Shown here in pieces: positions 2,231 to 26,496 of a DNA stretch of 32,794 nt (the stretch's first letter is position 1; every line of letters begins with the position of its first letter). The position numbers and the translations under genes are program-made. The notes below the pieces were generated by a model that did no database searches, was not told the origin of the DNA, and was given only the letters and a program-made list of their open reading frames with translations. Origin of the DNA: an uncultured Bacilli bacterium. Its GTDB lineage: Bacteria; Bacillota_I; Bacilli_A; RF39; UBA660. Where the stretch lies: assembly GCA_944359085.1 (NCBI GenBank), contig CALVSQ010000013.1, forward strand, positions 1 to 32,794, given 5' to 3'.

Positions 2231-2605
2231 TCAATTATTTACGAATTCATTAGTAATAAAATCGTTAATTAATTGATTTTGATATTCTTGATATTTCTTT
2301 ACAAATTCTTGTTTTAACTCATCTGGTAATATTCCAAGTTTTCTTTCAAACAAATTTTTAGGTCCAGTATATATTTTTGTTGTTTTAATAACAGATTTAC
2401 GAAGTAAATTAATTTGCTTAGCAGTTTCTTCATCAATAATGACATCATATATTCCAATTGCAGCAGATGAAGAAATAATCACATAGTGAATATCAGTGTA
2501 TAATAAATTATTATTAGCATCTGTTCCAATTACTAATACTGGTCGTGCTTTATATCCATCACTATTAGGTAATTTCGCCTTATAATACCATACTTCACCA
2601 ATCAT
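2231..2605 (-). CDS. MazF/PemK-like toxin of a Panacea-linked pair
   Basis: This is a 124-residue protein. The opening GEVWYYKAKLPNSDGYKARPVLVIG is the classic MazF/PemK start, with the conserved R-P-V-L-V-I strand. It is followed by a YVIISSS strand and by LLRKSVIKTTKIYTG, the usual basic substrate-facing segment, then a GILPDELKQEF helix and a short Lys/Asn-rich tail. MazF proteins cut single-stranded RNA; this activity is inferred. It overlaps the upstream Panacea-domain gene by four bases (ATGA), so the two are translationally coupled. That is the typical toxin-antitoxin layout, antitoxin first. Confidence 0.72.
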   Translation of the reverse strand: MIGEVWYYKAKLPNSDGYKARPVLVIGTDANNNLLYTDIHYVIISSSAAIGIYDVIIDEETAKQINLLRKSVIKTTKIYTGPKNLFERKLGILPDELKQEFVKKYQEYQNQLINDFITNEFVNN

Positions 2606-3060
2606 TTATTCCATTCCTCACTATTTGGTTGTAACATAAGGCTAACAAAGTATTCTGCAATAACCTCTTTAGGAATAATTTTATTATCACGTTCATCTGG
2701 ATCTAATCCTTCTCTTGCAAACTGCCATGGAAATTGATTATGAGTTATTTCTTCTAAATATTTTGAATCATACTTACCATAATTATCTCGCACAAACTCT
2801 AGCACTTGAAGTGTTTTTTGAGAAAAATTTGGAATTTGATATTTTAAATTTATTGGATTGTAAATATATTCACGATATTTAAAATATATATTACTATTAA
2901 CAGGTCCATGAACCCAAGCTTCTAATTCTTCGTCAAATAATTCTTCATCATTAAAACAAAATGAAATACCTTGCGCAAAATATAATAATTTTTGCAATTT
3001 TAATGGGTCTGGAGAAATTTCATTTATAAACCATTTTGCAATGTTTTCAATTTTTTCCAT
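2602..3060 (-). CDS. Panacea (SocA/DUF4065)-domain antitoxin
   Basis: This 152-residue protein carries a Panacea/SocA domain almost along its whole length. Signature segments are the N-terminal IAKWFINE helix, PLKLQKLLYFAQGISF, and LEAWVHGPVNSNIYFKYREY. Panacea domains are known as antitoxin domains that neutralise many unrelated toxin folds. The partner is the overlapping MazF-like gene. Translation starts at an ATG preceded by GGGAGG, and a strong promoter lies directly upstream. A LexA-like box sits in that promoter's spacer. The protein has no visible DNA-binding extension, so repression of the operon may be done by something else. The domain call is strong; the antitoxin role is inferred from context. 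Confidence 0.82.
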   Translation of the reverse strand: MEKIENIAKWFINEISPDPLKLQKLLYFAQGISFCFNDEELFDEELEAWVHGPVNSNIYFKYREYIYNPINLKYQIPNFSQKTLQVLEFVRDNYGKYDSKYLEEITHNQFPWQFAREGLDPDERDNKIIPKEVIAEYFVSLMLQPNSEEWNK

Positions 3061-3080
3061 ATTACCTGCCTCCCTATTTC

Positions 3081-3109
3081 AATATATCATACGAACAGAT
3101 ATTTGTCAA
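3081..3109 (-). promoter_or_regulatory. Sigma-A promoter of the Panacea/MazF-like operon
   Basis: TTGACA (3104-3109, minus strand), a 17-base spacer and TATATT (3081-3086) lie about 20 bases before the antitoxin start. The spacer contains the LexA-like box. A second perfect inverted repeat (7-base arms, 3127-3145) lies upstream of the -35. Confidence 0.72.
3092..3105 (+). promoter_or_regulatory. LexA/DinR-like box in the toxin-antitoxin promoter
   Basis: The 14-mer CGAACAGATATTTG matches the Bacillus SOS box pattern CGAACRNRYGTTYG at every fixed position but one (A for G at position 10). It lies between the -35 and -10 elements, where a repressor would block RNA polymerase. Whether this species uses that LexA consensus is not known from the window. 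Confidence 0.4.
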
Positions 3110-3161
3110 TTCAAACATAATCTTTTTATTGTATATTTTACAATATTGCATATTTATTAAT

Positions 3162-3190
3162 AAAAATTCAAGTATTTTAAACTTGAATTT
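3162..3190 (-). terminator. Intrinsic terminator after the AbgT gene
   Basis: Two perfect 10-base arms (3164-3173 and 3181-3190) enclose a 7-base loop. A U run follows on the minus-strand transcript. The first arm includes the last two bases of the stop codon. Confidence 0.8.
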
Positions 3191-4688
3191 ACATAGTAGC
3201 TAAAGTATCTATTCCCAAAGGTAGTCCTGCTATATACCAAATGATTAATATCAATAACCAGAATATAATCATTGTAATAATAATTGGCCAAATTAATTTA
3301 ACAGTATTAAATAATGTAACTTTATTTTCATTTTTATTATATTTTTGAATAAATCCTAACATAACAATAAAATAAATAAATAAAGGAGTTAATATTTTAC
3401 CAACACTATCAGCTGCTTTAAATACAAATTGAGCAAAATCAGGAGTTAAATTTCCTCTCATAAATAAAGGTACTAAAATAGGTGAAATTAAAGCCCATTT
3501 TTCTAAACTTCCTGGTATTAAAATACTCATAAGTATTATAAATATAAATGAAACAACAATTAAAGGAATACCAGTAAAATCAAATAAACTAATTATAGAA
3601 ATTAAATTATTAGCGATTACTGTTCCTAAATTAGTCCAATTAATAATTCCTATTAAAATTGAAGATAAAAACATTAAAACAAACAAATATCCAATATTAT
3701 CAAATTGTTTAGTAAATGACCAACCCAATTCATGATTGTTTTTAAAATTTTTACTTACAAATCCATATACTAATCCAATAATAGACATAACCATTAAAAA
3801 TAAATACATAAATGATAAATTAAAAGGAGCATTCGCACTAAATAATTTAGCTATATATTTTGTTTGTGTATTATCTAATAAAATACCATTAGGCATTATC
3901 ATTATAAATATTGGAATAACACAAATAATTAAACTTATAATAGAAAATAATAACGCTTTATTAGATGTTTTAATATCATCTTCATATTTAGCTGTAGTAG
4001 CAACTTTCTTACTTAAAAACTTTTCTATTAAAGTTGTAATTAAAAACGTTGCAATTACACTACTAACAATCATGATATATAAGTTTGAATATAAATTAAA
4101 TTTATATGATGGGTCAACATCAATAACTGCTGCTGCTTCGGTTAATACTCCTAAAGCATAATCATTATAGTTATAAAAAATACCCGTTCCATATCCTAAA
4201 GTTATACCTAAAAAAACTGTTATAATTCCTAAAACGGGACTTTTATTAACATATTGATATAATACAGCTACTAAAGGTAATAAAATTATATAACTATAAT
4301 CACCAATTATTGATGATATAACGCTTATAAAAACAACTATAAAAGTTAAAACATTTGGTTTTAATTTTTTTAAAGGTTCAAATAAATGTTTTAATAATCC
4401 ACTTTCTTTTAAAATGCCTATCGCCATTAAAGAAAGAATCATTAATACAAAAGGTTCTAACAATGTAAAATTAGTTATAATATTACTAAATAAATATATT
4501 AAGCCTTCCTTAGAAAAAATATTTTTAACAACTATTATTGATGTTTCTAACATACCATTTTCAATAGTAGTTTGAGTTCCATCAAAATTAATAATAGCTA
4601 AAAAACTACTAGTAATTAGAGCTATTAAAATTAATATACACATAGTTATCACAGGTGACAATAATTTCGGTTGTTTTTTTTTCGACAT
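3189..4688 (-). CDS. AbgT-family transporter
   Basis: This 499-residue membrane protein has about a dozen hydrophobic segments. It matches the AbgT family (p-aminobenzoyl-glutamate transporter/MtrF) through the order SLMAIGILKESGLL, then FIVVFISVISSIIGDYSYIILLPLVAVLY, then GIITVFLGITLGYGTG followed by LGVLTEAAA. A later SILIPGSLEKWALISPILVPLFM segment corresponds to the second half of the inverted repeat. Relatives carry p-aminobenzoyl-glutamate or export sulfonamides; the substrate here is not known. It starts 10 bases after the DUF951 gene with a GGGAGG ribosome site, so it is read in the parAB-mscS-DUF951 transcript. A strong terminator follows. It is not a normal member of that cluster. 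Confidence 0.85.
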   Translation of the reverse strand: MSKKKQPKLLSPVITMCILILIALITSSFLAIINFDGTQTTIENGMLETSIIVVKNIFSKEGLIYLFSNIITNFTLLEPFVLMILSLMAIGILKESGLLKHLFEPLKKLKPNVLTFIVVFISVISSIIGDYSYIILLPLVAVLYQYVNKSPVLGIITVFLGITLGYGTGIFYNYNDYALGVLTEAAAVIDVDPSYKFNLYSNLYIMIVSSVIATFLITTLIEKFLSKKVATTAKYEDDIKTSNKALLFSIISLIICVIPIFIMIMPNGILLDNTQTKYIAKLFSANAPFNLSFMYLFLMVMSIIGLVYGFVSKNFKNNHELGWSFTKQFDNIGYLFVLMFLSSILIGIINWTNLGTVIANNLISIISLFDFTGIPLIVVSFIFIILMSILIPGSLEKWALISPILVPLFMRGNLTPDFAQFVFKAADSVGKILTPLFIYFIVMLGFIQKYNKNENKVTLFNTVKLIWPIIITMIIFWLLILIIWYIAGLPLGIDTLATM

Positions 4689-7537: not shown

Positions 7538-9931
7538 TTAACTAAATCTATATGGATTTTGGGCTGTACCATCACCAGTTAATTGTAAATTTAACTTCAA
7601 ATATATAACTGGCCTAGTTCCATTAGCATATATATCCAAAGAACTACTTGTATAGTGAGAATAATTAATACAACGAACATATGGAGAATAATCTCTATTC
7701 ATTGTCCAATAGGAACGTATTGTTAAATAGGTATAGTTTATTGTTGGATTTTCGATTGTATTTACATCAACAAATGTTTTGGTGCTTGAAAAACTTAATT
7801 CTATATCATTTCCACTAAACATCTCTCCTATTATTGGCAATCCAACGTTAGCCGAAAGAACTTCATCATTTATATTTTTATAGTTTGTATTATCGGGATA
7901 ATCACCTATATAAAATACTTTATTTCCTGTGTATCGATAATTAGTTGATATATTATTAGCAAATTTTGTTAATTGCGTGTATATTGTATGATTGGTAGCT
8001 ATTATTGCAGAATTACCATAAATACTAGGAGTTGGAAGCATTCCATTCAATGTTACTTTAATACTATCATTATCTTTACTTACAACTCTAAATGTACACA
8101 TATTATCGCTTTCACACGCATTATCACTTCCACTATATGGTACATTGATATATTCACCAACTTGAACGTTGCTAGTACTGGTTGCTTTACTTGCTGTACG
8201 ATAACTATTTGTCAAACTTCCAGTACCACCAATTATAGTTATATCTGATATTTTTATTACTGGTCGAATGTTAAGCCCAAGTTGCGATGTTCCACTTTCT
8301 GTGTTTCCACCACTTGTAACGTATCTAACATCAGAAGAACTACTTCTATTTCCTAACCAAAAATTAATCCCCAAATCTAAATATGAATTGTCATTTCCAG
8401 CTCTTATATATTGTTGTTCATTCAATAATCCTACCTTTTGTGTTGTTGTTATTTCAGATACGTTTGTATAAATACCAACATTAAAATTACTCGTCAAAAT
8501 ATTTTTTTGTATACTAATATCTAAACTATTCCAAAAATAATCATTAAGCCAACTGTTAATGTAACTTGAATCATAAGCTGACTTACTTGTCCAAGCTGAA
8601 CTTGACGGTTGAATTACCGTTAATGGCTGTTGAGTAATTAATGTTAATGTTTTTGCTTTTGTATCAAACTCTAATACTCGCCATTGATGTCCACCATACC
8701 ATAAAAAGTTATTACTTACTTGTTCATTTGTTCCAGTATAATAATATAAATTTGGATTTGTATTATCTTTTACTAAACCAACTTTATTTCCATCATGATA
8801 TTGTTTTAATAATGTATAAATTAAATTTGTCAATGGTATTACTTCTATTTCTTTACTAGCAGTTCTAGTTAAACCATTTCCACCAGTTACAGTACATCTT
8901 AATGTTTGTATACCAATACCCAAACTATTTGTATTATTTGGATTACAGCTTATACTTCCACCACTTATTCCATAACTTACATTAAAATAATTGCTTACAG
9001 GATTACTAGTTCCTTGTTTTATTTCTACAGTTCCTTCTTTTGCTGTTATTGTAGGACTATCTTTATCTATTTTTATATTAAATGCTTCTGTTTGGCTGTT
9101 GCCTGCTAAGTCAGTTACAACTACATAAACCATTGTTCCTTTTGTATTTGATGTTATACTTTCTACACTACTTACTGTTTTATCATAACCACTTAGTGAA
9201 TCACTTCCATCACTAACTGATATATTTACATCTGACGTATACCAATTGTTTTGACCTAATGTTCCATTTATTGTAATTTCTCCAACAGTTGGTTTAGTTT
9301 TATCTATTTTTAATTCTTCGGTACAAGCCACTTCACTTTCACCAAAACTATTTACTGCTTTCGCACACACAACATTAGTTCCTTCACTCGTTAATATTTG
9401 ACTCCCATTTGATTTGTTTTCTTCTATTGTTGGTTCACATTCTGAATTACCTACGCAATAATAATATTTGCTTCCAGTACCATTTATATTTACCATAATA
9501 TTACGGTTTATCCAACCATTCTCATTTATATAATTTTTATCATAAACTAATGTCATTGTTGGCACTAGTTCTTCTGTTTGACATGATTCAACATATTTAA
9601 AATAATATTGATTTGTCGATTCGTACCAACGATACAATACACACCCTTGTAATTCTTTATCTGTTACCGGATTAATATGATCTTTCTTATTAATAAACCC
9701 TTTACTAATCAATTCAGATAATTCTAATACTTGTAATTCATTAGGATATCCCAAGTCATATTCCACACTATAACTATAAGCCGCTCTTTCAATATTTTCT
9801 ATTGTTCTTTCTAAAGCACTTTCTCTACTTTTTTGGATTGAATTATCAATAATTGGAAATGTTATTAAAGCTACAATTGCTAAAATAATTATTACGCCCA
9901 ATAATTCTATTAATGTAAAAGCCTTCTTCAT
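7538..9931 (-). CDS. Giant pilin-like protein with Ig-like region and two C-terminal modules
   Basis: This 797-residue protein starts with a type IV pilin/pseudopilin leader: KK, Ala, then FTLIELL and one hydrophobic helix, with the conserved Glu at +5. Prepilin peptidase would cut before Phe; Ala replaces the usual Gly at -1. Next come a pilin-like helix (to about 60), an Ig-like region (about 140-365, with NWYTSDVNISVSDG and VVVTDLAGNS), and two tandem modules (about 370-580 and 580-797). The module pattern is hydrophobic-W-R-V, an SYINSWLNDYFW segment, KVGLL, RPVIKI, then GTG. The last residues are GTAQNPYRF. The second pilin-like gene at 20354 has the same pair of modules. The modules recall DUF6273, but this is uncertain. 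ATG 9931 has AGGATGG upstream. No pilus-assembly genes are visible. Confidence 0.75.
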   Translation of the reverse strand: MKKAFTLIELLGVIIILAIVALITFPIIDNSIQKSRESALERTIENIERAAYSYSVEYDLGYPNELQVLELSELISKGFINKKDHINPVTDKELQGCVLYRWYESTNQYYFKYVESCQTEELVPTMTLVYDKNYINENGWINRNIMVNINGTGSKYYYCVGNSECEPTIEENKSNGSQILTSEGTNVVCAKAVNSFGESEVACTEELKIDKTKPTVGEITINGTLGQNNWYTSDVNISVSDGSDSLSGYDKTVSSVESITSNTKGTMVYVVVTDLAGNSQTEAFNIKIDKDSPTITAKEGTVEIKQGTSNPVSNYFNVSYGISGGSISCNPNNTNSLGIGIQTLRCTVTGGNGLTRTASKEIEVIPLTNLIYTLLKQYHDGNKVGLVKDNTNPNLYYYTGTNEQVSNNFLWYGGHQWRVLEFDTKAKTLTLITQQPLTVIQPSSSAWTSKSAYDSSYINSWLNDYFWNSLDISIQKNILTSNFNVGIYTNVSEITTTQKVGLLNEQQYIRAGNDNSYLDLGINFWLGNRSSSSDVRYVTSGGNTESGTSQLGLNIRPVIKISDITIIGGTGSLTNSYRTASKATSTSNVQVGEYINVPYSGSDNACESDNMCTFRVVSKDNDSIKVTLNGMLPTPSIYGNSAIIATNHTIYTQLTKFANNISTNYRYTGNKVFYIGDYPDNTNYKNINDEVLSANVGLPIIGEMFSGNDIELSFSSTKTFVDVNTIENPTINYTYLTIRSYWTMNRDYSPYVRCINYSHYTSSSLDIYANGTRPVIYLKLNLQLTGDGTAQNPYRFS

Positions 9932-9955
9932 AAGCACCATCCTATTCTCAATAGA

Positions 9956-20353: not shown

Positions 20354-22063
20354 CTATATTTGATATGGATTGCTAAACGTTCCAGTTCCACTAATTATTT
20401 CAACATCGGATTTAATTACTATAACTGGGCGAAGAGAATATACTTCATCAACATCTCTATTATAATTTAAATTTGCACCAGCATTCACAATGAACGACGA
20501 AAAATCATTATTAAATTTTGTTATTGTCCAAAATACTTTGCCATTGTTTCCATCACTTTTTGTTGTAAAATTTTTTGTCAATATGCTCGTGCTTTGTCCT
20601 GATAACATTTCTCCTACTCGTATTAATCCTACTGTTGCTTGTATAGTTTTTGTTGGCGTTAGCTCATCTAAAGAAATTTTATAGCTATTATAAAAATCAA
20701 AATTATTTTGATACCAAGTATAATTTGTTACTAACTTATTTCTGTCTTCAGTTTTACTGCTTGATACTAACCATTCTAATACATCACCATTTAACTTTTG
20801 ACCAATTCCAGTTGTTGTCGAAAATACATTACTATTTGATTCATTATATTTCATTTCAAATACATTTCCATCTTCATTATAATAATCATCTAATATCAGT
20901 TTTGTATTTCCATTACTATCTTTATCTACTACACGATATTTTTTACCTGAAAACAAAACATATTCACCACTTGTAGCTTTTTCATTTAGTTTTCCTGATA
21001 CTTCTATATTTTTATCTTCATTTAAAATATATGGTCCATCTTCATCGCTCCAATTTTCACCTATATTTCCTGTTCCTGAAGTGACAATTATTTCAAAATA
21101 TATATTAATAACAGGGCGTAGTCCACTTGCAATATGACTGTCAGTATAGTTGCCACTTGCAATCGCATACCATAAAGATGAACTACTATATGGTGTCATA
21201 AAATATTGAGATGTTTTTATATTTAAATAAGAATTTATACCACCTGCAAGATTATATTCATCTAATGATATCAATCCAACTTTTGAATCCTTCGTTAACA
21301 AATCATTTGAACATGTTGTTCTTGAACTATTTGCATCAGTAGTGGTATCACTACACCATGTTTGCTCACTTATTATTTCATTGTCTTTTAGTCTTGGATA
21401 AAAATAACTAGTTAACCAATCTTTAATATAGCTATCATCCCAATTTTCAGCGGTATTTTCTGCTCCCCATGGTATTGCTGTTACATTTTCATCAGTGATC
21501 ATTCTTACTGTCATATCACTATTTATTCCCATAATTCGCCATAAAAATCCTGAATACCAAACATAATTATTATCTGGATCACCTTTTAAATAGCATCCAC
21601 CCATATAACTATAATTATTATCACCTGGATTTTTACATCCATTTTCTCCTACTTCTAAATAAGGAAAATTATTTATTACAACATCATAAATTGTTTGAGC
21701 TACTATCAATTCATAACTAAAAGTACCATCTTCTTTTTTTGTAACTTTAACAGCATCTTTACTATTAAAAGCTAAATCATTATTAGGATTAATAGTATCT
21801 ATACTCAAATAATTATTACTGATTAAATCAGTAATATAAACATATTCAACAGCACCTATATCATCTAAACTTGAATATTCATCATAATTAGCCATAATAT
21901 AATTTTCTGCTGCCATATAAATACTATTTAAAGCATCTTGTTTTTTCTTTTCTTCACTATTTTTTATCGTCCCATTTATGGCTGGTAAAATAATTAATAA
22001 TATAGAAGCCATTATAACTATAATAGCCATTAATTCTACCAAAGTAAATGCATTCTTCTTCAT
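20354..22063 (-). CDS. Second pilin-like protein with two C-terminal modules
   Basis: This 569-residue protein begins like a pseudopilin: MKKN, Ala, FTLVELM and one hydrophobic helix, then a pilin-type helix to about residue 65. It lacks the Ig-like region of the larger protein. Two modules follow (about 110-345 and 350-569). The first has YVWYSGFLWRIMG, DDSYIKDWLTSYFYPRL, KVGLISLDEY and LRPVINIYF followed by SGTGNI. The second has GEYVLFSGKKYRVV, VGLIRVGEMLSGQ and LRPVIVI, ending SGTGTFSNPYQI. These line up segment by segment with the protein at 7538. The module resembles DUF6273 but this is uncertain. It has its own promoter and GGTGATAAT ribosome site, and leads into pgk after 13 bases. 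Confidence 0.75.
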   Translation of the reverse strand: MKKNAFTLVELMAIIVIMASILLIILPAINGTIKNSEEKKKQDALNSIYMAAENYIMANYDEYSSLDDIGAVEYVYITDLISNNYLSIDTINPNNDLAFNSKDAVKVTKKEDGTFSYELIVAQTIYDVVINNFPYLEVGENGCKNPGDNNYSYMGGCYLKGDPDNNYVWYSGFLWRIMGINSDMTVRMITDENVTAIPWGAENTAENWDDSYIKDWLTSYFYPRLKDNEIISEQTWCSDTTTDANSSRTTCSNDLLTKDSKVGLISLDEYNLAGGINSYLNIKTSQYFMTPYSSSSLWYAIASGNYTDSHIASGLRPVINIYFEIIVTSGTGNIGENWSDEDGPYILNEDKNIEVSGKLNEKATSGEYVLFSGKKYRVVDKDSNGNTKLILDDYYNEDGNVFEMKYNESNSNVFSTTTGIGQKLNGDVLEWLVSSSKTEDRNKLVTNYTWYQNNFDFYNSYKISLDELTPTKTIQATVGLIRVGEMLSGQSTSILTKNFTTKSDGNNGKVFWTITKFNNDFSSFIVNAGANLNYNRDVDEVYSLRPVIVIKSDVEIISGTGTFSNPYQI

Positions 22064-22154: not shown

Positions 22155-22178
22155 CAAAAAAAGTCAAATTATTGACTT
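22155..22178 (-). terminator. Intrinsic terminator after the gap fragment
   Basis: Seven-base arms AAGTCAA (22161-22167) and TTGACTT (22172-22178) with a 4-base loop holding the stop codon of the fragment, followed by a U run on the minus strand. It differs in sequence from the terminator of the intact gap. Confidence 0.75.
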
Positions 22179-22497
22179 AATTCGTTTAAATACTTAGCTG
22201 TTCTAACCATTTGATTAGAATAACCCATTTCATTGTCATACCAAGCAACAACTTTTACTAATTGTTTACCATCAACTTCTAATACATCAGTTAATAAACC
22301 ATCAACTAATGCCCCACAAGATGAACCAATTATATCACTTGATACTACTGGATCAAATGTGAAAGTCAAAGTTTCATTGCAACTATTCATTAAAGCATTA
22401 TTTATTTCTTCAACTGTTACATTTTTATTTAATTCTAAAGTCAAATCAACTACTGAATCAATATGCGTTGTTACATATTAAACACTACCATCTAATT
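22169..22497 (-). pseudogene. Broken duplicate of the gap 3' end
   Basis: This stretch is a copy of the last third of gap. Seventy-nine consecutive codons (NVTVEEINN to RTAKYL) encode exactly the same residues as the intact gene. The DNA differs at 11 bases there, all synonymous. Upstream, toward 22497, the likeness continues (LDGS, then a TAA stop, then DSVVDLTLE) but is decayed, about one base in three changed. The C-terminal residues differ (NELSQ against DSLK). There is no start with a ribosome site and no catalytic cysteine region, so this should not give enzyme. The synonymous pattern says both copies were under selection until recently. Confidence 0.9.
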
Positions 22498-22510: not shown

Positions 22511-23698
22511 TTAAAATTCCTCTTTATTCAAAAAATCAACTAAATTTAAATGTATTATCCCATTTTTACTATAATCTAATTTATCTAAGGTAATTAAATA
22601 TTTAGGATAATTATCTTTTATTTCATCAAAAGCTGATAATTCTCTTTCATAGGTGTTTTCATCAGAAACAGTCAGTGATACTTGAATATATTTTATTTTG
22701 TTTGCTTTCATTGCAACAAAATCTATTTCACCTTTTTTTGTTTTACCTATACAAACATCATAACCAAATGTTAACAATTGGTTATATACTATATTTTCAA
22801 TAGCATAAGATTTATTAATAAAAGATTTACTATTTTTTATTTGAGCCAAACCTAAATCAGTTAAATAATATTTGTTTAATGTTTTTAAAATTGCTTTGCC
22901 ATGAATATCATAACGATATATTTTTTGAATTAAAAAACATTTGCATAAAGCATCTAAGTAAGAATATAAAGTAGAATTTGATATTTCTCTTCCTTCATTT
23001 TTCAAATATTGAATTATATTAGTACTAGAAAATTCCCTTCCTATAGTATCTATTATATATTGCAAAATCAAATTAAATAAATTAATATCTTGTAATTTCA
23101 ATCTTTCAACAATATCTCTTAATATAATTGAATCATAAACGTTATACAAATAATTTTTAATACTTTCTTCGTCATTAAATTCAAATCGATTAGGTAATCC
23201 TCCCCATTTTAAATAGTCTTCTAACACTTCCTCGCTCGTATTTAACAATTGAGTTACTTCTTTATAACACAACGGTTTTATTTTAAAAGTTACATATCTT
23301 CCTGATAATACTGTTGATAATTCACTAGCTAATAATTTACTATTAGAGCCGGTTATAAATATACTAACATTAGAAGAAGCACGTAAAGAGTTAATAACTT
23401 TTTCAAATTGAGATACATTTTGAACCTCATCAAAAAATAAATAATAAATCTTATCATCTTTTATTATATCCTTTATAAATTTATTTAATTTTTTATAATC
23501 CAATAATTCTTCATATTCAATATATTCAAAATTTATATATACAATATGATTTTCAGAAATATTTGTATTTTTTAATTCTTCGATAATTTGTTTTAATAAA
23601 ACGGATTTACCACACCTTCTTATTCCAACTAATATTTTAACCAAATCACTATTATAAAAAGGTCTTATTCTTCTTAGATATATTTCTCTTTTCAACAA
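22511..23698 (-). CDS. AAA ATPase with DUF4143 C-terminal domain
   Basis: This 395-residue protein belongs to the AAA_14/DUF4143 family. Walker A is GIRRCGKSVLL (from about residue 25), Walker B is YYLFFDEVQNV, and sensor 1 is FITGSNSKLL. A winged-helix-like region follows, then DUF4143 with a nuclease-like KKGEIDFVAMKANKIKYIQV. The canonical second acid-x-Lys of that nuclease fold is not evident here (IQVS). Such ATPases are common in mobile or accessory DNA; their role is unknown. The start is TTG, with AGGTGA 8 bases before it. The gene has a strong promoter and two palindromes. It sits exactly between intact gap and the broken gap copy, which suggests it arrived by insertion. Confidence 0.88.
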   Translation of the reverse strand: MLKREIYLRRIRPFYNSDLVKILVGIRRCGKSVLLKQIIEELKNTNISENHIVYINFEYIEYEELLDYKKLNKFIKDIIKDDKIYYLFFDEVQNVSQFEKVINSLRASSNVSIFITGSNSKLLASELSTVLSGRYVTFKIKPLCYKEVTQLLNTSEEVLEDYLKWGGLPNRFEFNDEESIKNYLYNVYDSIILRDIVERLKLQDINLFNLILQYIIDTIGREFSSTNIIQYLKNEGREISNSTLYSYLDALCKCFLIQKIYRYDIHGKAILKTLNKYYLTDLGLAQIKNSKSFINKSYAIENIVYNQLLTFGYDVCIGKTKKGEIDFVAMKANKIKYIQVSLTVSDENTYERELSAFDEIKDNYPKYLITLDKLDYSKNGIIHLNLVDFLNKEEF

Positions 23699-23804: not shown

Positions 23805-23829
23805 AAAAGATAGTTATTTTAAACTATCT
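23803..23829 (-). terminator. Intrinsic terminator of gap
   Basis: Eight-base arms (23808-23815 and 23822-23829), a 6-base loop, then six U on the minus-strand transcript. The gap stop codon spans the second arm and loop of the hairpin. Confidence 0.85.
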
Positions 23830-24818
23830 AAATACTTAGCTGTTCTAACCATTTGATTAGAATAACCCATTTCATTATCATACCAAGCAACAACTTTTAC
23901 TAATTGTTTGCCATCTACTTCTAATACATCAGTTAATAATCCATCTACTAATGCACCACATGAAGAACCAATTATATCACTTGATACTACTGGATCAAAT
24001 GTGAATGTTAAAGTTTCATTACAACTATTCATTAAAGCATTATTTATTTCTTCAACTGTTACATTTCTACTTAATTCTAAAGTTAAATCAACTACTGAAC
24101 CAGTTGGAGTAGGTACACGTAAAGCACTGCCATCTAATTTACCTTTTAAAGATGGAATTACTAATCCTAGAGCAGAAGCAGCTCCAGTACTAGATGGAAT
24201 AATATTCATAGCGCCAGCTCTACCACGACGTGCTTTAATACCTTTTTTATGAGCTACATCTAATATAACTTGATCGTTAGTATAAGCATGAACTGTAGTC
24301 ATATAGCCTTTAACAATACCAAATTTATCATTAATTACATTTGCTACTGGAGCCAAGCAGTTAGTTGTACAAGAAGCTGCTGAAATAATTTTTTCTGTTC
24401 CATCTAATGTTTCATGATTTACATTATAAACTATTGTTTTCATATCACCTTTACCAGGAGCAGAAATAATTACATGTTTAGCACCTGCTTCAATATGTTT
24501 ATAGGCATCTTCATACTTAACAAATTTACCAGTACATTCAAATACTTGGTCTATTCCTAATTCACCCCAAGGTAAATTTGCAGGATCTGTTTCTTTAAAT
24601 ATTTTAATTTTTCTTCCAGATACAATAATATTATTTTCATCAAAATCTATTTCATCTAATTTATAATTTCTATGATTACTATCATATTTTAATAAATAAG
24701 CAAGTTGTTCAGCATCAGTTAAATCATTGATTGCTACAACCTCAATATTAGGATCTTCCTCCATAATTCTAAATACTAATCTTCCAATTCTTCCAAAACC
24801 ATTAATTGCTACTTTCAT
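23814..24818 (-). CDS. gap: Glyceraldehyde-3-phosphate dehydrogenase
   Basis: This 334-residue enzyme is full length. It has the NAD-binding start VAINGFGRIGRLVFR, the aspartate of the adenosine site (INDLTD), and catalytic Cys150 in SAASCTTNCLAP. The catalytic His lies in MTTVHAYTNDQ, and PSSTGAA and WYDNEMGYSNQMV complete the signature. It oxidises glyceraldehyde 3-phosphate and makes 1,3-bisphosphoglycerate for Pgk. ATG 24818 has GGGTGATAA upstream; the longer frame runs into the preceding gene. It lies 16 bases after the TGS-kinase gene, so both are read from the promoter at 26521. Its last third is duplicated at 22169, so this 3' end may itself be the newcomer. Confidence 0.97.
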   Translation of the reverse strand: MKVAINGFGRIGRLVFRIMEEDPNIEVVAINDLTDAEQLAYLLKYDSNHRNYKLDEIDFDENNIIVSGRKIKIFKETDPANLPWGELGIDQVFECTGKFVKYEDAYKHIEAGAKHVIISAPGKGDMKTIVYNVNHETLDGTEKIISAASCTTNCLAPVANVINDKFGIVKGYMTTVHAYTNDQVILDVAHKKGIKARRGRAGAMNIIPSSTGAASALGLVIPSLKGKLDGSALRVPTPTGSVVDLTLELSRNVTVEEINNALMNSCNETLTFTFDPVVSSDIIGSSCGALVDGLLTDVLEVDGKQLVKVVAWYDNEMGYSNQMVRTAKYLDSLK

Positions 24819-24834
24819 TATTATCACCCTTTCT

Positions 24835-26496
24835 TTAATGGAAACAACTTCCACCAATAAATTCTCTTAAAACTGATTCTTTTGGAACATCATCCGATGG
24901 AATTGGTAAAAAATTCCTTAAAAAATTAATTAATCTTATTGCTTCCGGATACACTTCATCATCTTCATTAACTGAAAATAATAAAGGTTCAGCATAAGTT
25001 TTTAATACACCTAATTCATATATCAAAGCGGAATTAATAATTATATCGGCTTTGTTCTGATATGGGAAAACATATTCTTCTTCACCTTCTAATATATTTT
25101 TCCAATTTCTCAATGTATCTGCAGCATTCCATCCACGATACTTATTGTCTCTTATTATTCTTCTTAATCTTCTTGTATCAGATGTATGAATTCGATTATG
25201 ATTATCAATATTTAATTGCGTTAATGGACTAATATATATTTTAAATTTATTTGCATCATCAATCGCTAAAGTCAATTCTGGATTTAATGCATGTAATCCT
25301 TCAATTATAACAATATCATTTTCTCCTAATTGTAATGTTCTTCCTTTATATTCTCTTTCTCCTAAAACGAAATTATATTCAGGAATCATTACCTTTTCAC
25401 CTGCTAATAATTTTAATAAATGTTTATTAAATAAATCAGTATCTACAGCTTTTAATGATTCAAAATCATAATCACCATTTGCTTTTTTAGGTGTATCAAT
25501 ACGATTTAAGAAATAATCATCAGTTGAAATACTATGTGTTTTAAATCCTCTAGCTTTTAAATATACTTCTAATTTTCTAGCAGTAGTAGTTTTACCACTT
25601 GAAGAAGGACCAGCTAATAAAACAATTTTAACTTTATTTTTCTTATTATAAATAATATCAGCAGTTTTAGCTAATTGGCTATTATAATTAGCTTCAGCCA
25701 ATTGAATAACATCATTATATTTACCTAATGATACTATTTTATTTAAATCAGCAGCATTTGATATTCCTAATGTTTTTCCTAAATTAGTATAATCTAAGAA
25801 TGCATCAAACATCATCTTATGATGAGAATAATCTTCTGTATATTTAGGATTATTAATAGATGGATAACTTAAAACAAAGCTATTATCTTTAATATAAGTC
25901 AATTTAAATTCATCTAACACTCTTGTACTATAAGGCATTTCACTAAAAAAATAGTCATAATATTCATCTAACCGATATAAATTAATATAAGTATTACTTA
26001 TATATTTAAATACATCTACCTTATCAAATTGTTTTTTCTTTTTAAAGAAATTCATTGCATCTTTTCTAGAAACACTTAGCTTAATAAAATTATAATCTTG
26101 TTTAACTAATTCTTCCATTTTAGATTCAATCTGTTTAATTATATCTTTATTAATTTCTTTATTAACAATTTCACAATAAACACCTTTATCGATTGAATGT
26201 TGAATAATAACTTCTGCATCATTACCTAACACTTTTTTTATAGCTACAATCATCAAAAAATGTACACCATGAGAATATACAGTATGACCAAAAGTAGAAC
26301 TTCGATCATAAAAATCAACTGAACATTTTTTAGTTATATTGTAAGCTAATTCTTCAATAACATTATCAACCTTAGCTATCAAAATTGGATAATTATATCT
26401 ACTTTGAAAACTATGTGCTATTTCTGATAATGGAGTATTTTCAGGATATTCTTTAATTAATCCCTCTTTATACTCTACTCTAACCATTTTATCCAT
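24835..26496 (-). CDS. Nucleoside (uridine) kinase-like protein with TGS and ThrRS-like N-terminal domains
   Basis: This 553-residue protein has three parts: a TGS domain (about 4-64), a threonyl-tRNA-synthetase-like second domain (about 65-230, with TFGHTVYSHGVHFLM), and a uridine kinase/phosphoribulokinase-type domain (about 285-500). The kinase P-loop is AGPSSSGKTTTARKL; HSISTDDYFLNR and IVIEGLHALNPEL follow. Proteins with this order are called nucleoside kinases and probably phosphorylate uridine or another nucleoside; the role of the synthetase-like part is unknown. ATG 26496 has AAAGGA upstream at 9 bases. It is the first gene of the transcript that continues into gap. Confidence 0.88.
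   Translation of the reverse strand: MDKMVRVEYKEGLIKEYPENTPLSEIAHSFQSRYNYPILIAKVDNVIEELAYNITKKCSVDFYDRSSTFGHTVYSHGVHFLMIVAIKKVLGNDAEVIIQHSIDKGVYCEIVNKEINKDIIKQIESKMEELVKQDYNFIKLSVSRKDAMNFFKKKKQFDKVDVFKYISNTYINLYRLDEYYDYFFSEMPYSTRVLDEFKLTYIKDNSFVLSYPSINNPKYTEDYSHHKMMFDAFLDYTNLGKTLGISNAADLNKIVSLGKYNDVIQLAEANYNSQLAKTADIIYNKKNKVKIVLLAGPSSSGKTTTARKLEVYLKARGFKTHSISTDDYFLNRIDTPKKANGDYDFESLKAVDTDLFNKHLLKLLAGEKVMIPEYNFVLGEREYKGRTLQLGENDIVIIEGLHALNPELTLAIDDANKFKIYISPLTQLNIDNHNRIHTSDTRRLRRIIRDNKYRGWNAADTLRNWKNILEGEEEYVFPYQNKADIIINSALIYELGVLKTYAEPLLFSVNEDDEVYPEAIRLINFLRNFLPIPSDDVPKESVLREFIGGSCFH

Follow-up and report, generated by a model that had tools for sequence, protein, structure and literature searches.

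The protein encoded beside the PGK gene in this DNA probably belongs to a family of lectin-headed type IV pilin adhesins, which is diversified by the exchange of heads and, in some members, by DGRs; the two family members found here have unwritten heads, likely retired from DGR control. The DNA analysed (hereafter the window) is a stretch of 32,794 nucleotides, contig C13 of a MAG of 1.13 Mb that is 68% complete. Judging from sequence, the host appears to be a small-genome gut bacterium of the Bacilli/Mycoplasmatota, in or near the genus Candidatus Faecisoma, and head-sequence similarity links it to MAGs of uncultured Bacilli, Tenericutes and Candidatus Faecisoma merdavium. Two family members and two anchor genes lie in the window:

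20354..22063, reverse strand: P0001, 569 aa, a type IV pilin-like protein whose class A1 head is a double DUF6273, identified from its ORF, BLASTP against P0002 and N_methyl
7538..9940, reverse strand: P0002, the second family member, with a pilin stem, an Ig-like region and a double DUF6273 head (class A2), 800 aa
19189..20340, reverse strand: PGK, the 3' anchor of the P0001 locus in same-genus genomes
23814..24857, reverse strand: GAPDH, the 5' anchor of the same locus

The sequence-only reading had proposed that P0001 and P0002 align segment by segment, and BLASTP bears this out. Residues 165-568 of P0001 align with residues 410-798 of P0002 over 432 columns (27% identity, E=6e-20), which takes in both head modules, while the likeness of the leaders is a separate alignment (residues 1-96, E=1e-05); the resemblance is thus not confined to the leader. 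All of the motifs it had quoted are there: the W-R strand, SYI..WL..YF, KVGL[LI], RPVI twice, VG..GEM(L/F)SG and the closing GTxxxNPYxx. Its description of the two genes as unlinked is fair, as they sit on one contig about 10 kb apart with housekeeping genes between them. The “same design” is nevertheless a distant one, because head classes A1 and A2 are only ~28–30% identical. The Ig-like region is an extra in the longer protein (P0002, approximately residues 130-395), to which a Pfam scan gave no significant name. Against PF19789 (DUF6273, cut-off 23.5 bits), P0002 scores 31.5 bits and P0001, scanned alone, scores 13.5 and falls below the cut-off, with relatives C30_11865 and C6_1849 at 28.8 and 41.8 bits, respectively.

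The P0001 ORF starts with ATG, and the PGK start codon comes directly after it, 13 nt away. Upstream, at window positions 22175-22495 and 22511-23698, the intact GAPDH is followed by an inserted ATPase gene (AAA_14/DUF4143) and then by a second copy of the 3' third of GAPDH. This arrangement also occurs in three related genomes (G013, G014 and G009, ATPase 93–95% identical) and is absent from G007, G008, G010, G011 and other genomes, a distribution that suggests a shared insertion.

P0001 begins with a prepilin leader, i.e., a short basic start, a cleavage site and FTLxE followed by a hydrophobic helix:

21701..22063, reverse strand: P0001 pilin stem, residues 1-121, with leader MKKNAFTLVEL and a long N-terminal helix, supported by the AlphaFold model and the PGK-locus orthologues

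N_methyl (PF07963) scores 22.9 bits on P0001 in the genome scan (cut-off 21.2) and 16.1 bits on the whole protein alone. The first AlphaFold model places the stem helix at residues 8-58 (local pLDDT 53-86). A sequence search of whole P0001 against solved structures returned a pilin match at the leader only, plus chance cathepsin matches, and PHROGs matched the window proteins only at the leader. The genome encodes a prepilin peptidase (PF01478 at C5, 9.5e-17) and pilus assembly ATPases (PF00437 at C37, 6.7e-125, and at C31), and this machinery together with the leader makes P0001 a putative surface-displayed pilus protein. Small headless pilins also occur in this genome: two lie in tandem at C4 (L021:2404-3299), 3' of a tRNA synthetase gene, and their stems resemble those of head-bearing pilins, making them candidates for the major pilin.

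The P0001 head comprises two modules:

21059..21646, reverse strand: head module 1, residues 140-335, DUF6273 / C-type-lectin fold, by AlphaFold model and alignment
20357..21058, reverse strand: head module 2, residues 336-569, DUF6273-like / C-type-lectin fold, by alignment

With an input of five sequences, AlphaFold gave no usable head model (head pLDDT 38). With 47 aligned head sequences, it gave a model of residues 140-569 (m5933cbb1ee9f) with pLDDT 91.1 and pTM 0.92, and in that model the P0001 head is predicted to have the C-type-lectin fold of DUF6273. The closest solved structure, and the only strong one among the matches listed (E=2e-6), is 9qa6, the N-terminal region of a Thomasclavelia ramosa IgA peptidase: its residues 32-302, the DUF6273 region of that gut enzyme, align with model positions 217-430 (module 2) at Z 16.4 and an rmsd of 2.7 over 185 residues. 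The likeness stops at the domain, as the T. ramosa protein is a secreted peptidase with no pilin leader and P0001 has no peptidase domain. Further alignments were to the Legionella Lcl C-terminal domain (Z 8.4), the Bacteroides fimbrial protein 4eps (model positions 1-182, module 1, Z 6.5) and several C-type lectins (Z ~5-6). In the viral library BFVD, phage DUF6273 proteins came out on top, with named DUF6273 phage models at E<1e-3. In phages, published work describes DUF6273 as a DGR target that resembles C-type lectins (PMC10743442, PMC11792537).

The sequence-only reading had also suggested that this organism has a family of surface proteins, and a genome-wide count supports it: 26 ORFs carry an N-methylation pilin leader, approximately 20 of these have large heads, and there are 19 DUF6273 matches. 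By alignment, the large heads fall mainly into three kinds, namely A1 (double DUF6273, like P0001), A2 (double DUF6273, like P0002) and B, another head to which Pfam gave no name. Pilin leaders number 9-32 per genome in seventeen same-genus and seven same-family genomes and 0-6 in other families of the class. Some members depart from the common plan. At C39, a pilin with an A2-type head is broken and has an in-frame TAG (L020, approximately 2500-3820); it adjoins a single-DUF6273 pilin (C39:4633-5739), the two having a common stem. In a more distant uncultured Bacilli MAG, a DUF6273-type head sits on an apparent signal-peptide protein that has no pilin leader (L098).

Different species carry different heads at the P0001 locus. 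PGK is 83–97% identical over most same-genus genomes (74% in G015), and the stem 5' of it is conserved between related species and kept throughout the genus. The head, however, is A1 in this genome and in G005, A2 in G013, G014, G009, G007, G002, G003, G008 and G006 (G001 and G016 being only partly visible), LamG in G012 (PF13385, 5e-20) and absent from G010 and G011, where the protein is 123-125 aa long. In G005, a frame break separates the stem from the A1 head, and most of one module has been lost. A nucleotide comparison with G013 locates the change: identity of ~0.8-0.96 over the flank and stem gives way to ~0.45 over the head and then to 0.87-0.99 over PGK. Heads also vary over near-constant stems within this genome, where the stems of C30 (A1), C7 (A2) and C12 (A2) are 93–100% identical. 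The C30 gene, which lies 216 nt from a contig end, has the same type of head as P0001 on a different stem.

DGRs act on other members of the family. The cassette at C32 is a complete DGR: adjoining a B-head pilin are a template, MutS_I (2.4e-10), bAvd (4.9e-18) and an RT (RVT_1, 1.6e-16) with a DGR-type SQ motif (IPIGNYTSQ). Over 149 positions, the template differs from its target at 10, every one of them a template adenine (Fisher p=5.8e-7). A second template, SSNAWNVNNNGNANNNDVSNTNGVRA, lies just 3' of C17_19615, an A1 gene, and both modules of that gene match it, with adenine/other mismatches of 15/7 and 16/8. For C4_14000, a pattern search for a template matched only the gene's own two variable regions (VRs). 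Another RT in this genome (C42, L039, 318 aa), which adjoins a small helix-turn-helix gene, was considered as a DGR and set aside as retron-like on account of its QGAPTS motif.

A1 pilins in other genomes of this genus adjoin complete DGR cassettes. For example, L059 has the order pilin, hairpin, template, MutS_I (8.3e-6), bAvd-like (2.1e-8, 35.1 bits, below the cut-off of 40) and RT (2.4e-15), and L056, L063 and L066 likewise have a pilin head target beside an RT and template. In three genomes, a single template could be compared with both VRs of a head, giving adenine/other mismatches of 10/0 and 15/1 (G002), 13/2 and 13/0 (G007), and 13/1 and 16/1 (G010). As one template matches both modules and almost all mismatches are at adenines, one template appears to write both lectin domains of a head.

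Written heads can be recognised by several marks. Their VRs have a GC3 of ~0.5-0.73 against ~0.15 elsewhere in the gene, they mostly read RAVI instead of RPVI, and VR1 is usually like VR2. GC3 strongly separates the two tags, and with them written from unwritten heads (p=1e-10). Most written heads also have a hairpin, CACCTTGCC-N-GGCAAGGTG, approximately 40 nt 3' of the stop codon. An exact search of 40 related genomes found it in this genome and in 15 of them, each belonging to the genus, which has 17 among the 40; no genome outside the genus had it, nor did a reversed control. It follows a written head in 22 of 22 distinct copies with a readable upstream gene and has an adjacent template in about half. 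At the PGK locus, the heads of G013, G003 and G005 are written and have the exact hairpin, which unwritten alleles lack.

The corresponding segments of the two window proteins are as follows:

21113..21193, reverse strand: P0001 module 1 segment matching the DGR variable region of relatives, approximately residues 291-317 (...LRPVI), GC3 0.23, RPVI
20426..20509, reverse strand: P0001 module 2 segment matching the DGR variable region of relatives, approximately residues 519-546, GC3 0.19, RPVI
8261..8344, reverse strand: P0002 module 1 segment corresponding to VR1
7610..7693, reverse strand: P0002 module 2 segment corresponding to VR2

P0002 is unwritten, with RPVI and GC3 values of 0.19 and 0.12. 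Neither protein has a GC3 peak, RAVI or a hairpin after its stop codon, and the identity between VR1 and VR2 of P0001 is 0.46. No template for either was found in the 1.09 of 1.13 Mb scanned; as the MAG is 68% complete, a template or RT acting on them could be missing from it. On this evidence (low GC3, RPVI, no hairpin and no template), we dropped P0001 as an active DGR target. The suggestion in the sequence-only reading that heads may be variable therefore holds family-wide and in two ways, as whole-head exchange on conserved stems and as DGR hypermutation in other members, but for the window proteins themselves it finds neither a DGR mark nor a recovered template.

The absence of GC3 peak, RAVI, hairpin and template would also suit a history in which the window proteins are ordinary pilins with fixed lectin heads and no DGR ever targeted them, with written heads recruited later from the same DUF6273 stock. 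Two deep rows outside the main clade (L092 and L100) are likewise unwritten, which is also compatible with an unwritten ancestor. We nevertheless consider this history rather unlikely. In a head tree built without the variable regions, written heads are interleaved with unwritten ones, with at least four state changes forced by well-supported branches, and P0001 groups with C30_11865 inside a mixed written/unwritten clade. Decayed-looking versions of the hairpin remain 3' of C12_1762 and C4_14000. End branches are longer in unwritten heads (median 0.34 vs 0.10, p=3e-8), and this, together with the interleaved states, is why the data favour retirement of the window heads from DGR control.

Two further explanations concern the modules and the exchange pattern. 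DUF6273 is a Pfam domain of unknown function and its best solved match sits in a peptidase, so the modules might be enzymes or structural repeats of a surface protein whose leader serves only for membrane anchoring or secretion. This is improbable given that the fold matches C-type lectins and bacterial adhesins (Lcl and the fimbrial 4eps) and that DGRs write the very segment which, in phage DUF6273 targets, is a surface-exposed variable region (PMC10743442). The pattern of head exchange might instead be a binning or assembly error between paralogues with near-identical stems, since some paralogue stems are as alike as those given above and some genes are close to contig ends. Misassembly is possible for some intra-genome mosaics, i.e., those near contig ends or in near-identical repeats, and it could account for a single one of these, but not for the cross-species pattern at the PGK locus. 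The GAPDH-stem-PGK locus differs in its head among a dozen separately assembled species, its stems are locus-specific and not repeated, and both sides of the head match the orthologous locus, making error a very remote explanation for the pattern as a whole.

Our preferred reading remains a lectin-headed pilin family with exchangeable heads. P0001 would be a type IV pilin-like subunit, in all likelihood one of the minor pilins displayed at the tip, with a stem that enters the pilus via the prepilin leader and a head, two tandem DUF6273 domains of C-type-lectin fold, that would act as an adhesin by binding a ligand. Whole heads (~1.3 kb) would be swapped by recombination at the stem/head junction, such that a locus keeps its stem and changes its head between species. 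In some heads, DGR RTs would use one template to rewrite both lectin domains at their ligand-binding ends, while the two window heads are not rewritten and most likely are retired, with fixed specificity. A more speculative extension, which we think improbable as it stands, is that the head, stop codon and hairpin travel together, with DGR homing, or recombination that it provokes, transplanting heads between pilin loci.

Cassette exchange is known in the pilin variation of other bacteria. Parts of the system described here also have precedents among DGRs. Phage tentaclins and small DUF6273 DGR targets (PMC10743442) and Faecalibacterium prophage targets (PMC11792537) have in common with the pilin heads the DUF6273 C-type-lectin fold and the rewriting, by a DGR, of a variable region located at the domain's C-terminal end. 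Those targets are phage receptor-binding or decoration proteins, however, whereas the pilins described here are cellular proteins with a type IV stem and, in each such head, a pair of DUF6273 domains and a pair of variable regions; their genes are many and scattered, and some members are unwritten. Several VRs in a single target ORF have been reported for 31 of 271 multi-VR DGRs (PMC6642488); in the pilin heads, the two VRs are at the homologous ends of two tandem lectin domains.

Among pilus proteins, type V tip pilins of Bacteroides are described as diversified by DGRs (Macadangdang et al. 2024, as cited in PMC12632263). As far as that citation goes, they resemble our family in being pilus proteins of gut bacteria with a DGR-diversified binding end, but they are lipoproteins of another pilus class, whereas our pilins begin with a type IV prepilin leader, and their heads are mobile and of a different family. 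In the Treponema denticola DGR (PMC4891356), one RT and template serve several dispersed targets and there are leftover targets without core parts, as in our family. According to the passages of that paper available to us, its targets are lipoproteins without a type IV pilin stem, and those passages describe no exchange of stems and heads. The main text of the global DGR survey mentions neither pilins nor DUF6273, and in the open-access papers searched we found no DGRs with prepilins or in Mollicutes, which is weak evidence. DUF6273 lectins and DGR-diversified pilus tips were therefore already known separately, and what is new is that the stems are type IV pilins, that a head holds two targets and that heads are exchanged.

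For those working with metagenomes, the combination of GC3 peak, RAVI tag and hairpin is a ready marker for sorting active from retired DGR targets. The family would be an adhesin-variation system that joins cassette exchange with DGR hypermutation in a reduced-genome gut bacterium with approximately 20 head-bearing pilin genes. If hairpin-linked head transplant proved true, the system would be a combinatorial one that exchanges modules, hypermutates chosen targets and keeps retired, fixed heads in reserve.
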